A stretch of 28,231 nt of DNA from a virus, in IMG/VR virus record IMGVR_UViG_3300046517_000445, positions 1 to 28,231 of that record; one strand, 5' to 3'. The position numbers and the translations under genes are program-made. This document shows positions 1-28,231 of this stretch, piece by piece (the first letter of the stretch is position 1; the number at the start of each line of letters is the position of its first letter). Below the pieces are notes generated by a model. The model saw nothing but the letters and a program-made list of their open reading frames with translations. It ran no database searches and had not been told where the DNA came from.

Positions 1-185
1 TCTTGCGGATATGATCAAGCAAGAATCTTTGGAAACATCTTCGACCTCAACGGACGAGACTTCTCCGATGTCACCCTCATCACAGGCGGATTTCCTTGCC
101 AACCTTTCAGCGTTGCCGGGAAGCGAGGAGGCGCGGCAGATGACCGTGCGATCTGGCCTCAGATGTTCCGCGTTATTAGCGAAGC
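1..185. repeat. Terminal direct repeat, left copy (assembly overlap)
   Basis: These 185 bases are repeated at 28047..28231 with one difference: G at 128 here, T at 28174 there. Both copies lie inside the methyltransferase gene, whose frame runs straight through the junction. This is what a circular or circularly permuted genome looks like after linear assembly, giving about 28,046 unique bases. A true terminal repeat is less likely because the repeat sits in mid-gene. Confidence 0.9.
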
Positions 186-1098
186 GCGACCTGCTTGGGT
201 GCTTGGCGAGAACGTTCCTGGAATCATCCCGATGGAACTCGACAACGTGCTATCTGACTTGGAAGGAATCGGCTACACCACGAGGGCGTTTGTTATTCCG
301 GCTTGTGCCGTCGATGCCAGACATAGACGAGACCGAGTGTGGATTATCAGAAGAAACATGGCCAACGCCCAGAGTGAGCGAAGTGGCTGCGTCGATGGAC
401 ATGAGAAATATTCAGAACAGGATCAATTCAACGGGTTATCACAGCAATCTAGAGGAAAAGGTTGCGATGTTTCCAACCATGAGGGCGAGCGATCACAAGG
501 GGTCGGGAAAACGTGGCGGGAAGGGACAGATCAATATGGAAGCGAAGTCCTATCTGTGCGCGACGGTGGCGACAGAGCAGAGTGGCTCCCTGAACCCGGC
601 ATGGGTCGAGTGGTTGATGGGCTACCCCAAAAATTGGACGGAGGTATAAATGACAAAGTGGATGGTGAGAAAACGATCTCAACGAAGTATTTCCCTGAAT
701 GGGAAATGTTGCGAGCGATGTGGCACGACCGAGAACTTGCAAAGGCATCACCCGAATTACGAGTCAGAAAAATGCTCTATTTTCTGTCAGCCATGTCATG
801 TGATTATGGATCAGCTTCATGGAACACGGAGGCAGAGAAAGACCCAGGAGTGTTCAGTTTGTGGAAAGAGATTTCTACCTCTGGATTCTCACAATCACCA
901 AACCTGTTCCTCCGCTTGTTTGAGCAGATTGGGGCGAATAAATGCGCTCAAGAGGTGGCGCAGTGGATTACGGAACCTGCAATCCCAAGAGTCGCAATCG
1001 GAGTTAAAGATCGAGTCAAAAGACTTAAAGGACTCGGCAACGCCATCGTCAGCCAAGTCGCCTACGAGATCCTGCGAGAAATCAGAAAGTTAATATGA
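1..1098 (+). CDS. C5 DNA cytosine methyltransferase, C-terminal part (continued from 27726)
   Basis: Same gene as 27726..28231, in frame from base 1. Visible motifs are FPCQPF with the catalytic Cys (97..99), LGENVPG motif VI (Glu at 208..210), RHRRDRVWII motif VIII (about 322..351), and RLKGLGNAIVSQVA motif X (1021..1062). Two segments resemble the domain IX/X linker: EPGMGRVVDG (about 598..627) and EPAIPRVAIG (about 973..1002). The roughly 200 residues between motifs VIII and X should hold the target-recognition domain; I cannot deduce the recognised sequence. Much of this DNA is also open and protein-like in the +1 frame (2..649 and 650..1093). The stop TGA (1096..1098) overlaps the ATG of the next gene (ATGA), so the two are probably coupled. 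Confidence 0.93.
   Translation, partial: SCGYDQARIFGNIFDLNGRDFSDVTLITGGFPCQPFSVAGKRGGAADDRAIWPQMFRVISEARPAWVLGENVPGIIPMELDNVLSDLEGIGYTTRAFVIPACAVDARHRRDRVWIIRRNMANAQSERSGCVDGHEKYSEQDQFNGLSQQSRGKGCDVSNHEGERSQGVGKTWREGTDQYGSEVLSVRDGGDRAEWLPEPGMGRVVDGLPQKLDGGINDKVDGEKTISTKYFPEWEMLRAMWHDRELAKASPELRVRKMLYFLSAMSCDYGSASWNTEAEKDPGVFSLWKEISTSGFSQSPNLFLRLFEQIGANKCAQEVAQWITEPAIPRVAIGVKDRVKRLKGLGNAIVSQVAYEILREIRKLI
2..649 (+). CDS. Overlapping +1-frame WPTP-repeat protein, C-terminal part
   Basis: Continuation of the frame that starts at 27709, open from base 2 to TAA at 647..649. Two more repeat units are visible: TWPTPRVSE (from 356) ending in NLEEKV, and MFPTMRASD (from 467). The C-terminus LNPAWVEWLMGYPKNW (590..637) is a recognisable signature of this protein type. 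The segment at about 83..350 is the +1 reading of methyltransferase motifs IV-VIII. The frame therefore alternates between repeat units, where the methyltransferase is unconserved, and shadows of methyltransferase motifs. It ends exactly one base before the next same-frame ATG (650). I infer real dual coding but cannot prove translation. Confidence 0.55.
   Translation, partial: LADMIKQESLETSSTSTDETSPMSPSSQADFLANLSALPGSEEARQMTVRSGLRCSALLAKRDLLGCLARTFLESSRWNSTTCYLTWKESATPRGRLLFRLVPSMPDIDETECGLSEETWPTPRVSEVAASMDMRNIQNRINSTGYHSNLEEKVAMFPTMRASDHKGSGKRGGKGQINMEAKSYLCATVATEQSGSLNPAWVEWLMGYPKNWTEV
650..1093 (+). CDS. Zinc-finger / HNH-like protein nested in the methyltransferase gene (+1 frame)
   Basis: A 147-aa ORF entirely inside the methyltransferase gene in its +1 frame, immediately after the WPTP ORF stop. 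GGAGG at 640..644, five bases before the ATG, is one of the best ribosome binding sites in the window. The N-terminal half has CCERCGTTENLQRHHPNY then FCQPCHVIMDQLHG, the CxxC...HH...CxxCH layout of phage HNH-type proteins. A second zinc-binding segment follows, ECSVCGKRF...HNHQTCSSAC, then a basic helix (LGRINALKRW). The last 40 residues are Ser/Lys-rich and are the shadow of methyltransferase motif X. DNA binding is likely; whether it cuts DNA is unclear because no full HNH catalytic set can be assigned. Confidence 0.6.
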   Translation: MTKWMVRKRSQRSISLNGKCCERCGTTENLQRHHPNYESEKCSIFCQPCHVIMDQLHGTRRQRKTQECSVCGKRFLPLDSHNHQTCSSACLSRLGRINALKRWRSGLRNLQSQESQSELKIESKDLKDSATPSSAKSPTRSCEKSES

Positions 1099-3382: not shown

Positions 3383-3500
3383 CTGTGCGCTCCGTATCAA
3401 ACTGCGGCCTCAATAGCAAGCTTTTATTTTGCTCAGGCCAAGTCAACCATAAAATCTCGGCAATCAGGATTGCGCCAAGTGCGACCAGAACCCATTTCAT
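3372..3500 (-). CDS. Small single-TM protein
   Basis: A 42-aa protein starting at ATG 3500, which overlaps the previous stop as ATGA. Residues 1-20 (MKWVLVALGAILIAEILWLT) are a single hydrophobic helix; the tail (PEQNKSLLLRPQFDTERTDAR) is charged. The start is chosen from the 4-bp overlap, since the longer upstream frame is a shadow. Probably part of the lysis/membrane cluster; function unknown. Confidence 0.6.
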   Translation of the reverse strand: MKWVLVALGAILIAEILWLTWPEQNKSLLLRPQFDTERTDAR

Positions 3501-3634
3501 CGCTTCACCCTTTCTTCTAACCGGATGATCGTGTCGCGCATCCACGCGCACGCTCGGAAACCCGCTAAAATCAGACCAGAGAACACGATTATCACCACTC
3601 CGGTCGCGATCTTTACAGTTGTCGTCTTGCTCAT
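3497..3634 (-). CDS. Small single-TM protein
   Basis: A 45-aa protein flanked by ATGA overlaps at both ends (3634 with the lipoprotein stop, 3497 with the next start). One TM segment (IATGVVIIVFSGLILAGF) is preceded by a Lys/Thr N-terminus and followed by a basic amphipathic helix (MRDTIIRLEERVKR). It reads like an i-spanin or holin-accessory stub next to the lipoprotein at 3631..3789, but is too short to span the periplasm. Confidence 0.6.
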   Translation of the reverse strand: MSKTTTVKIATGVVIIVFSGLILAGFRACAWMRDTIIRLEERVKR

Positions 3635-3789
3635 TCACGCAGGGATTTGATTAGTGCTTTGGTCGCGGCTTCGTCGGAAACGGATACTGGATGCTTCGCC
3701 ACTCGATGTCGATGATGCTTCACGGACTTGCGAGGTGTCGCGCATCCGATTAATAAAACTGAGAGAACGAGCACCGTTATCCATTTCAC
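3631..3789 (-). CDS. Very small lipoprotein, o-spanin candidate
   Basis: A 52-aa protein from a GTG overlapping the previous stop (GTGA). VKWITVLVLSVLLIGCATP has a textbook lipobox (LIGC) with Cys at residue 16. The mature protein of about 37 residues is basic (KSVKHHRHRVAKH). Size and lipobox fit Rz1-like outer-membrane spanin subunits, though the usual proline richness is missing. The coiled-coil TM protein immediately upstream (3786..4259) would be its natural partner. Inferred from layout. Confidence 0.6.
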   Translation of the reverse strand: MKWITVLVLSVLLIGCATPRKSVKHHRHRVAKHPVSVSDEAATKALIKSLRE

Positions 3790-4259
3790 TTTTTAGCCTT
3801 ATACGACTCTTCTATGTAGTCGCCGAAGCGTTTCACTTTGCCTTTCAGTTCCTCAATGTCGCGTTCGTCATCGTGAAGTTTGCTGTCGTGAGTATTCAGT
3901 TTACCAATGTTCGATTGCTGGACTGCTTGCAACGCTCCGATTTGCTGATCCTGCGATGAGTTGCGTGATGCGATGCCTTCCTTCTGCTGTGCGTAAAGAG
4001 AGAACTCCTTATCAAAATCCTGCATGTCTTTCTGCGTCACGCCCTTGCTCTGCACTGCGTTAAAATACGCTAGCAGGACTCCGGCCGCCACGCCCCAACC
4101 TCCGCTCGCCAACATTTTCCATAGTGCAATATGGTTGCCGTTCATCGGAGCGATATAGTCCTGATACTCCGCAACTCTCACGCCGCCCGATGGCGTGCGC
4201 GGCGAACCGCCCTTCACGTCGTAGCGGGGTTCTAAGTCTCTGGGAGGTTGCAGAGCCAT
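3786..4259 (-). CDS. TM protein with C-terminal coiled coil, possible i-spanin
   Basis: 157 aa. A soluble N-terminus (about 40 residues) leads to one TM segment near residues 50-68 (LASGGWGVAAGVLLAYFNAV), then about 85 residues of heptad-like helix (QDQQIGALQAVQQSNIGKL, DDERDIEELKGKVK). One TM plus a periplasmic coiled coil directly before a tiny lipoprotein gene matches an i-spanin/o-spanin arrangement, except that the TM is not at the extreme N-terminus. Alternatively it is a virion-associated membrane protein. An internal ATG at residue 39 (MNGNHIALWKM) could give a more spanin-like form. Confidence 0.65.
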   Translation of the reverse strand: MALQPPRDLEPRYDVKGGSPRTPSGGVRVAEYQDYIAPMNGNHIALWKMLASGGWGVAAGVLLAYFNAVQSKGVTQKDMQDFDKEFSLYAQQKEGIASRNSSQDQQIGALQAVQQSNIGKLNTHDSKLHDDERDIEELKGKVKRFGDYIEESYKAKK

Positions 4260-26817: not shown

Positions 26818-26981
26818 GCTGCAACCTTACGAAAGCGTTTCCGTTGTGTCAACATCTTTTTCTTTAATCTTTTTTCGACGCTGATTCTCGCAGCGGTTCT
26901 CCTCTGATGCAGAGCATCTGGTGACATCGTTTTTGGTTTACCCCTGCCTTTTCGGCCTAATGCTTGAGCGTGTTTATTCAT
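26814..26981 (-). CDS. Small highly basic protein
   Basis: 55 aa from ATG 26981, overlapping the endonuclease VII stop (ATGA). Extremely Lys/Arg-rich (MNKHAQALGRKGRGKPKTMS, ISVEKRLKKKMLTQRKRFRK), so probably nucleic-acid binding. The frame extends upstream to 27035, but that part is antisense-like and uncoupled. A TTGACA with 17-bp spacing to TAAGGT sits within its 3' part and could drive downstream genes. Confidence 0.65.
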   Translation of the reverse strand: MNKHAQALGRKGRGKPKTMSPDALHQRRTAARISVEKRLKKKMLTQRKRFRKVAA

Positions 26982-27415
26982 TGTGAAAGATAATCGTGAA
27001 ATTTCGTTTCGCGTGCTGGCGGGTTGTCGCGCCACTTACCAAGTTTTATATTGCAAGACGTGCAGAGCAATCCGCGCACCTTACCTGTCGCGTGATCGTG
27101 ATCTATGTTGAGCGGTCTTTTGCGATTATGCTTGCCGCAAACGAAGCAACCTCTCTGCTCGAAGGCTCTGAGGTATTTGTATTCCTCTCGCGATAGTTGG
27201 TAAATGCCTAATTGCTGAATCACGCGAGCACGCGGAAACCATTCTTGTAATTCCTCCGCGCCCTCGAACGTTTCCTGATTATGGCAGACCAAACACCACG
27301 CGCCTCGCTTACCGTCGCTTGCCCGAATGTAAAAGTGATCCATCGGTTTTCGAGTATGGCATACAAGACATTCACGATGTTTCACGAAAGCAACGTAACC
27401 GCTTCCGTTTGACAC
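26978..27415 (-). CDS. Recombination endonuclease VII-like (HNH) protein
   Basis: 145 aa from GTG 27415, or 135 aa from GTG 27385 (VKHRECLVCHTRKPMDHFYI), which is the more typical N-terminus. An N-terminal zinc pair (CLVCHTRKP...CLVCHNQ) is followed by the endonuclease VII core: CFVCGKHNRKRPLNIDHDHA, TGKVRGLLCTSCNIKLGKWR. DHDH...G..RGLLC..CN is the hallmark. It resolves branched DNA before packaging or, as a free HNH, nicks DNA. First gene of the long minus-strand unit. The longer start overlaps a TTGAC dyad. Confidence 0.92.
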   Translation of the reverse strand: MSNGSGYVAFVKHRECLVCHTRKPMDHFYIRASDGKRGAWCLVCHNQETFEGAEELQEWFPRARVIQQLGIYQLSREEYKYLRAFEQRGCFVCGKHNRKRPLNIDHDHATGKVRGLLCTSCNIKLGKWRDNPPARETKFHDYLSQ

Positions 27416-27567: not shown

Positions 27568-27722
27568 CCGATTGGACTCGGATTCTACCGAGAAAACAGG
27601 GAACGACAGATCAGGAACGAGTTGCTTATCTCGTCGATTTCCTAACGCACCGGAGAGGATCGAAAGTATCGGTCAATAAGGCCGTGAAAGAACTATCTAA
27701 ACTCAATCATGGAATCAAATGA
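27564..27722 (+). CDS. 52-aa protein before the methyltransferase
   Basis: GTG at 27564 overlaps the previous stop (GTGA). The protein runs VTDWTRILPRKQGTTDQERV and ends KAVKELSKLNHGIK, a basic two-helix protein. Its stop TGA (27720..27722) is three bases before the methyltransferase ATG, and its 3' end overlaps the WPTP-frame start at 27709. Family not recognised. Confidence 0.6.
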   Translation: MTDWTRILPRKQGTTDQERVAYLVDFLTHRRGSKVSVNKAVKELSKLNHGIK

Positions 27723-28176
27723 GCTATGGCCTACACCGAGAGCGAACAAGATAGGCGGATACAGCAGTCCGAACTTTCGGCCAACATTGGAGCAGGAAGT
27801 CAACCGGCGCACCTCGACCTCTTCAGCGGCATCGGAGGATTCGCCCTCGCCGCGCGATGGGCAGGATTCAGGACAATCGGGTTCTGCGAAATCGACAAAT
27901 ACTGCCAGAAAGTGCTCGCCAAAAACTTCGGGGCTGTTCCCAACTCCGAGAACAACGGACACAAGCAGTTCTCGGATAATCCGTCGCAAAGAAAACGGAA
28001 AGTGGGAGAGGGTAAATGCGAAGGGAACGATAACTTACGGAGTGAATCTTGCGGATATGATCAAGCAAGAATCTTTGGAAACATCTTCGACCTCAACGGA
28101 CGAGACTTCTCCGATGTCACCCTCATCACAGGCGGATTTCCTTGCCAACCTTTCAGCGTTGCCGGGAAGCGAGTAG
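27709..28176 (+). CDS. Overlapping +1-frame WPTP-repeat protein, N-terminal part (stopped by TAG in this copy)
   Basis: An ORF in the +1 frame of the methyltransferase gene, starting at ATG 27709, 17 bp before the methyltransferase start. It carries LWPTPRANK at residues 6-14 (27724 on) and LFPTPRTTD at residues 76-84 (27934 on). Each is followed by a polar spacer and a short acidic or aliphatic tail (LEQEV, NLADMI). In between, the sequence is Ser/Thr-rich and is simply the shadow of motif I in the other frame. The ORF ends at TAG 28174..28176 only because of the T at 28174. With the G of the left copy it continues to 649, giving 328 aa. WPTP-type proteins of this style occur, from memory, next to or overlapping phage cytosine methyltransferases. 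Function unknown. No clear Shine-Dalgarno site. Confidence 0.5.
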   Translation: MESNELWPTPRANKIGGYSSPNFRPTLEQEVNRRTSTSSAASEDSPSPRDGQDSGQSGSAKSTNTARKCSPKTSGLFPTPRTTDTSSSRIIRRKENGKWERVNAKGTITYGVNLADMIKQESLETSSTSTDETSPMSPSSQADFLANLSALPGSE

Positions 28177-28231
28177 GCGCGGCAGATGACCGTGCGATCT
28201 GGCCTCAGATGTTCCGCGTTATTAGCGAAGC
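27726..28231 (+). CDS. C5 DNA cytosine methyltransferase, N-terminal part (continues at position 1)
   Basis: The gene methylates cytosine C5 in phage DNA, probably protecting against host restriction. Motif I DLFSGIGGF is at residues 31-39 (27816..27842), followed by GFCEID for SAM binding, and motif IV GGFPCQPFSVAGKR with the catalytic Cys at residue 140 (28143..28145). The ATG at 27726 is fixed by an in-frame TGA at 27720..27722, which is also the stop of the upstream small gene. Joined across the circular junction (28046 to 1) the protein is about 472 aa, normal for the family. Between NFGAVPN and IFDLNG there is an unusually long insert of about 45 residues. In the +1 frame that same DNA encodes a WPTP-type repeat. 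Codon 28173..28175 reads Val here but Gly in the left copy. Confidence 0.93.
   Translation, partial: MAYTESEQDRRIQQSELSANIGAGSQPAHLDLFSGIGGFALAARWAGFRTIGFCEIDKYCQKVLAKNFGAVPNSENNGHKQFSDNPSQRKRKVGEGKCEGNDNLRSESCGYDQARIFGNIFDLNGRDFSDVTLITGGFPCQPFSVAGKRVGAADDRAIWPQMFRVISE
28047..28231. repeat. Terminal direct repeat, right copy
   Basis: Second copy of 1..185, differing only at 28174 (T instead of G at 128). In the methyltransferase frame the change is GGA to GTA (Gly to Val). In the overlapping +1 frame it changes GAG to a TAG stop. It may be a sequencing error at a contig end or a real population variant. Confidence 0.9.

Follow-up and report, generated by a model that had tools for sequence, protein, structure and literature searches.

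A second gene in the +1 frame of a phage cytosine-5 methyltransferase gene: a probable split enzyme encoded by one piece of DNA

The locus lies across the ends of the 28,231-nucleotide stretch of viral DNA analysed here (the window), whose two termini repeat each other over 185 bases, positions 28047-28231 being the same as 1-185 except for a single mismatch, G at 128 in the left copy and T at 28174 in the right. When the ends are joined via the left copy, a C5 methyltransferase of 472 amino acids, called M, runs from 27726 through the junction to 1098. The +1 frame of the same DNA is open from an ATG at 27709 to a stop at 647-649 and gives a protein of 328 amino acids, called P; a first-pass annotation made from the sequence had read this frame as open from 27709 to 649 with the left-copy base (328 codons), and its coordinates were reproduced. 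With the T of the right copy, the +1 frame meets a TAG at 28174-28176, which leaves P only 155 amino acids long, and KRGG in M becomes KRVG. Because relatives have the +1 frame open, this T is most simply explained as a probable end-of-contig error or variant. The features of the locus are as follows.

27726..28231, plus strand: 5' part of M, the putative alpha subunit, a C5 methyltransferase (PF00145, E=1.3e-35; phrog_363, E=8.7e-67)
1..1098, plus strand: 3' part of M, with motifs IV, VI, VIII and X; motif IX is absent in the M frame
27816-27842: motif I of M
85-111: motif IV of M
202-216: motif VI of M
316-348: motif VIII of M
1030..1050, plus strand: motif X, GLGNAIV, in the M frame
27709..28231, plus strand: 5' part of P, the putative beta subunit, +1 relative to M (phrog_1008, E=1.1e-33)
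2..649, plus strand: 3' part of P, with the stop TAA at 647-649, homologous overlaps in relatives and synonymous-site constraint
27724..27741, plus strand: P unit 1, LWPTPR
27934..27951, plus strand: P unit 2, LFPTPR
356..373, plus strand: P unit 3, TWPTPR, where the M frame reads MANAQSER
467..484, plus strand: P unit 4, MFPTMR
590..637, plus strand: motif IX in the P frame, LNPAWVEWLMGYPKNW, with profile links via actinophage motif IX

P thus contains four WPTP-like units, hereafter the LPTP units, followed by a C-terminal tail that reads LNPAWVEWLMGYP in the window, all at the positions that the first-pass annotation had implied. None of the units falls within motifs I, IV, VI, VIII or X of M, which agrees with the suggestion that they keep clear of the conserved parts of the methyltransferase, and the four units compare with 0.2 in synonymous shuffles of the M codons, a number well beyond chance as had been supposed. 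The further idea that P is only shadow sequence where it lies over the conserved motifs of M is not supported, as the P core over motifs IV-VIII is conserved among 102 P sequences and the synonymous sites of M are constrained there.

The openness of the +1 frame was followed in relatives, which were also gathered with M as the query so as not to select for P. At loci selected in this way the +1 frame is open over 200-405 codons in most cases, as against 24-84 in the +2 frame, and the offset of P is M+1 in all 225 non-redundant M/P overlaps. Among 32 conventional bacterial C5 methyltransferases, the longest +1 run has a median of 76 codons, with 18 stops. When the codons of the window's M are shuffled synonymously, the +1 frame acquires 5.65 stops on average and is free of stops in only 1 of 20,000 shuffles. 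Across the overlaps, synonymous shuffles of M give 449 P stops and the real sequences 0, a comparison that is descriptive only, the overlap being defined as open. Held-out P sequences score 239 bits as they stand and 85 bits after synonymous shuffling of M, and the real P exceeds all 10 of its shuffles in 112/113 held-out sequences.

Selection on the synonymous sites of M is associated closely with the limits of P. For pairs that are 60-75% identical in M, the difference at four-fold sites is 0.25 within the overlap, 0.605 before it and 0.656 after it; these and the following rates are descriptive, with no formal tests, since the pairs are phylogenetically non-independent. A profile built from 1,561 pairs starts at ~0.6 upstream of P, falls to 0.19 across the first 8 codons of P, rises to 0.62 where the constraint weakens, 16-23 codons into P, and reaches its lowest values, 0.014-0.016, at -24 to -9 codons from the P stop, in the motif IX tail. 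Just past the stop the difference is back to 0.67. The boundaries of the constraint at the start and stop of P are sharp, and purifying selection acts on both frames, as is characteristic of an overlapping gene pair.

Many relatives also have what appears to be a start signal for P. A Shine-Dalgarno match of at least 5 nt is found upstream of the P start, usually within M, in 63/129 cases, compared with 7.6% of random internal sites, and a recurrent layout consists of AAGGAG, a TAG in the P frame and then the ATG, the stop often lying 3 nt before the ATG. No clear Shine-Dalgarno sequence lies upstream of the window's own P ATG. On these comparisons dual coding at the M/P locus can be regarded as established, and the evidence indicates that the P frame is a gene rather than a chance shadow and that the overlap is under selection in hundreds of phages. 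The first-pass annotation had proposed that both frames code, and had named a +1 frame broken in homologues, or synonymous sites of the methyltransferase free of excess conservation, as observations that would speak against it. Relatives were examined on both points; their +1 frame is open and the excess conservation at M synonymous sites within P is strong.

The identity of P becomes apparent from what is missing in M. M carries motifs I-VIII, including the catalytic motifs, with PCQPFS and GENV present, and is a C5 methyltransferase (PF00145). In hhalign comparisons with conventional C5 methyltransferases, motifs I-VIII align with E=5.5e-42, and the C-terminus aligns separately, through motif X only; by the same alignment no motif IX is found in M. 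A monomeric C5 methyltransferase has motifs IX and X in one polypeptide, whereas M has X without IX and the P of the window has IX without X. The P tail, LNPxWVEWLMGYP, corresponds to C5-methyltransferase motif IX by an assignment that is transitive through actinophage enzymes: the tail matches the actinophage motif IX with E=5e-13 (hhalign), and the actinophage motif IX matches the conventional IX-X region with E=3e-6. Compared directly with conventional motif IX, the P tail, which at 24 columns is too short, reaches a probability of 10% and is not significant. The pattern L.P.....LMG[FY]P..[FW] is common to the P tail and to enzymes such as that of L273 (RRLTPRECARLMGFPDTF), and within P the four-fold site profile shows the least change over motif IX. 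P falls within phrog_1008 (102/102 members). An AF2 model of the C-terminal part of P is of low confidence (pLDDT 64.5, pTM 0.28).

Relatives in which the same parts are arranged differently are instructive. In gp66 of the mycobacteriophage DillTech15, motifs I-VIII, LPTP units of the P type (E 3e-6, 1e-6 and 2e-10), motif IX and motif X all lie within one ORF, and in Darolandstone gp38 and in 1191A motifs I-VIII, IX and X are likewise found in a single ORF. L151, from a Rickettsiales MAG, reads LNPDWVEWLMGYP between motifs VIII and X without leaving the frame of these motifs and of the rest of I-VIII; the L151 model matches M.HhaI end to end (1-341 on 11-325, Z 21.5), with the IX region of low confidence. 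L119 also gave a same-ORF match. In Kampy, Firecracker, Vash and Jumbo, one ORF carries I-VIII and a second carries IX and X. At L165 (2884-3993) motifs IX and X are both in the P frame, as in these actinophage pairs, and motif X therefore seems to move between frames. Sequence comparison shows that P ends in motif IX, that M is without it and that both parts are fused in one ORF elsewhere.

P-like ORFs are also found apart from M. L134 has a complete M followed downstream by a free-standing P-type ORF (3429-4223) with LPTP units and a LNPVWVEWLMGYP tail; the M frame there is full of stops and the embedded P is truncated, and the two genes appear to have lost their overlap. An overlapping pair on a Paenibacillus bovis plasmid (L158) is followed by a small P-like tail ORF, 2486-2884, reading WPTPMASG...NPAWIECMMGFPEGWTSLD, and this standalone ORF, used as a query against viral contigs, found no relatives. 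A search of plasmids for a restriction-linked pair gave matches mostly annotated as DNA cytosine methyltransferase. Two loci with shifted frames, probably due to indels (L090 and L127), were left out of the evidence.

Natural division of a C5 methyltransferase has precedents. Lee, Kam and Shaw reportedly described in 1995 that the gene for the small subunit of M.EcoHK31I overlaps the gene for the large one in an alternative frame, and M.EaeI is split like M.EcoHK31I. The large subunit of M.EcoHK31I contains motifs I-VIII and X and the small subunit motif IX only, whilst M.AquI also consists of two subunits, with motif IX in the small one (PMC3404938). The partition in the window, with I-VIII and X in M and IX in P, is that of M.EcoHK31I, as matched by description. 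In M.AquI motif X is also in the small subunit, an arrangement that fits the Kampy, Firecracker, Vash and Jumbo pairs but not the window. M.EcoHK31I and M.EaeI are cellular restriction-modification enzymes of which very few examples are known, whereas M/P occurs in hundreds of phages, and, unlike their small subunits as described, P is ~170-400 amino acids long and has an LPTP-unit array and a conserved N-terminal region.

The M/P locus is probably a naturally split cytosine-5 DNA methyltransferase, encoded by one piece of DNA in two frames. The first-pass annotation had taken P for a separate WPTP-repeat protein of unrelated role; the tail with motif IX, the lack of that motif in M and the union of all the parts in one ORF in DillTech15 gp66 make it most likely instead that P is the beta subunit, the variable-region and motif IX half of the same methyltransferase. 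The M frame would give an alpha subunit responsible for SAM binding and catalysis through motifs I-VIII plus X, and the +1 frame, which would be translated in the window phage, a beta subunit made up of the N-terminal region, the variable LPTP-unit array in place of a target-recognition region, and motif IX. The two are predicted to assemble as a heterodimer into a single enzyme that would methylate the phage DNA, most likely as a defence against host restriction. Phage methyltransferases usually serve to protect against host restriction, and M/P is assumed to do likewise. That the LPTP units are target-recognition modules is a guess, prompted by the position of the DillTech15 units between motifs VIII and IX; two of the window's four units lie N-terminal to such a place, and the large subunit of M.EcoHK31I is said to hold the predicted target-recognition domain, which makes this role for the array less secure.

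Other explanations of the +1 frame have to be set against a split enzyme. If it were an untranslated shadow, open through the composition or codon bias of M, one would expect the conserved motifs of M to dictate part of the P sequence, as they do, and the 85 bits retained by synonymously shuffled P frames might be accounted for; yet the synonymous-site constraint is bounded by the start and stop of P, internal ribosome-binding sites are present and conventional methyltransferases are without long open +1 frames. On the shuffle tests and the synonymous-site tests this reading is rejected, and its probability is considered negligible. A ribosomal frameshift could carry translation from motifs I-VIII of M into the P frame for the LPTP array and motif IX, and then back for motif X, thereby generating a full-length enzyme. 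Its motifs would then stand in the canonical order, and DillTech15 gp66 and L151 are examples of single-ORF versions. However, two shifts would be needed, the constrained stretch of P that precedes the LPTP array would be needless, and P in many relatives has a Shine-Dalgarno sequence and ATG of its own within M, all of which make frameshifting very improbable.

Somewhat less remote, though still unlikely, is the idea that P, although a genuine overprinted gene, has a function apart from that of M, perhaps as a regulator or a counter-defence protein, and that its likeness to motif IX either arose by coincidence or survives from an old fusion. A conserved region of P over motifs IV-VIII of M has no methyltransferase counterpart, which favours a separate function. 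The conserved N-terminal region of P is without a counterpart in monomeric methyltransferases, and this counts against a split enzyme, as do two loci (L117 and L118) where M is present and the P frame is broken by 9 stops. P has no convincing match among the models of Pfam and NCBIfam, PDB searches that took the P profile or Kampy gp77 as query gave no match, and P-type genes free of M occur. Against a separate function, DillTech15 gp66 joins LPTP units and motif IX to motifs I-VIII and X in one ORF, motif IX is the part of P that tolerates least change, and M is without it.

The pair is widespread. Relatives of P are present in at least 582 viral-contig stretches and in phage records, where 103 were found at first and several hundred with divergent queries. 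Homologues of P were matched in phages of Escherichia (N15, Bas74, K1ind1), Klebsiella, Salmonella, Pseudomonas, Paenibacillus, Lacticaseibacillus, Bacteroides, Mycobacterium and others, a host list that consists of search matches, both frames having been read directly in a subset of records. In a sample of genomes from one bacterial phylum, phrog_1008 was matched in 17/299. The label of PHROG 1008 is 'DNA methyltransferase', and some GenBank records annotate both frames, such as Shelly gp56, the 'g55 internal gene', and K1ind1 gp32/gp33, so the overlap has already been noticed by annotators. In K1ind1 (L244), Escherichia phage P AB-2017 (L243) and PMG1 (L245) the P ORF is named DNA methyltransferase or 'putative Mte8-like protein'. 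The PHROG and internal-gene annotations neither analyse the overlap nor assign motifs or a role as subunit, and no description of P or of the M/P overlap was found in the open-access literature searched. The split C5 methyltransferase is a known but rare kind of enzyme, whilst its breadth, the dual selection and the LPTP array appear to be undescribed.

The broader proposal, that M/P represents a widespread phage enzyme with interdependent subunits in two frames, long-lived across very different hosts and with the LPTP array as its variable target-recognition region, is regarded as evenly balanced. If true, the same DNA would evolve as a catalytic protein in one of its frames and as the partner that sets specificity in the other, and M.EcoHK31I, a lone known oddity, would turn out to be the exposed edge of a large class of phage methyltransferases with their second half in another frame. 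Databases either name the locus as a methyltransferase only or omit one of the two genes. Since gene callers are apt to retain just one of two such ORFs, many phage 'DNA methyltransferases' are probably half-enzyme annotations, and M cloned alone could be an inactive protein. The long same-strand overlap, the very strong synonymous constraint and the tractable phages that carry the pair (N15, Bas74) make dual-coding evolution within one enzyme directly testable.

A second +1 ORF, absent from the first-pass annotation, is nested in M.

650..1093, plus strand: ORF of HNH and zinc-finger type, 147 amino acids, starting directly after the P stop

It lies within an insertion between motif IX of P and motif X of M, through which M reads, and contains an HNH motif, CERCG..LQRHH..CQPCH, followed by a zinc motif, CSVCGKRF..TCSSAC. 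Among the PHROGs it matches HNH families weakly (E 2.4e-3 to 0.02), and it matches phrog_12986 with E=2.8e-4. L007 has an insertion at the same site whose P frame carries HNH and zinc motifs in a different order, with M open, whilst in relatives such as L005 and L085 M is shorter and could not accommodate the HNH insertion. The ShiLan domain of actinophage methylases is an HNH insertion that lies out of frame (PMC11855218), and 650-1093 has the same layout, in which the methylase frame stays open and a different frame conceals an HNH/zinc ORF. The ShiLan study concerns the HNH element and not P, and the likeness is to the layout described there; on that basis the ORF looks like a ShiLan-like 'hidden HNH' insertion.

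A recombination endonuclease VII gene adjoins the methyltransferase on the opposite strand (26981-27415, minus strand; PF02945, E=3e-19). The other genes of the window phage include a Mu-like portal, a Mu F-like gene and a terminase.
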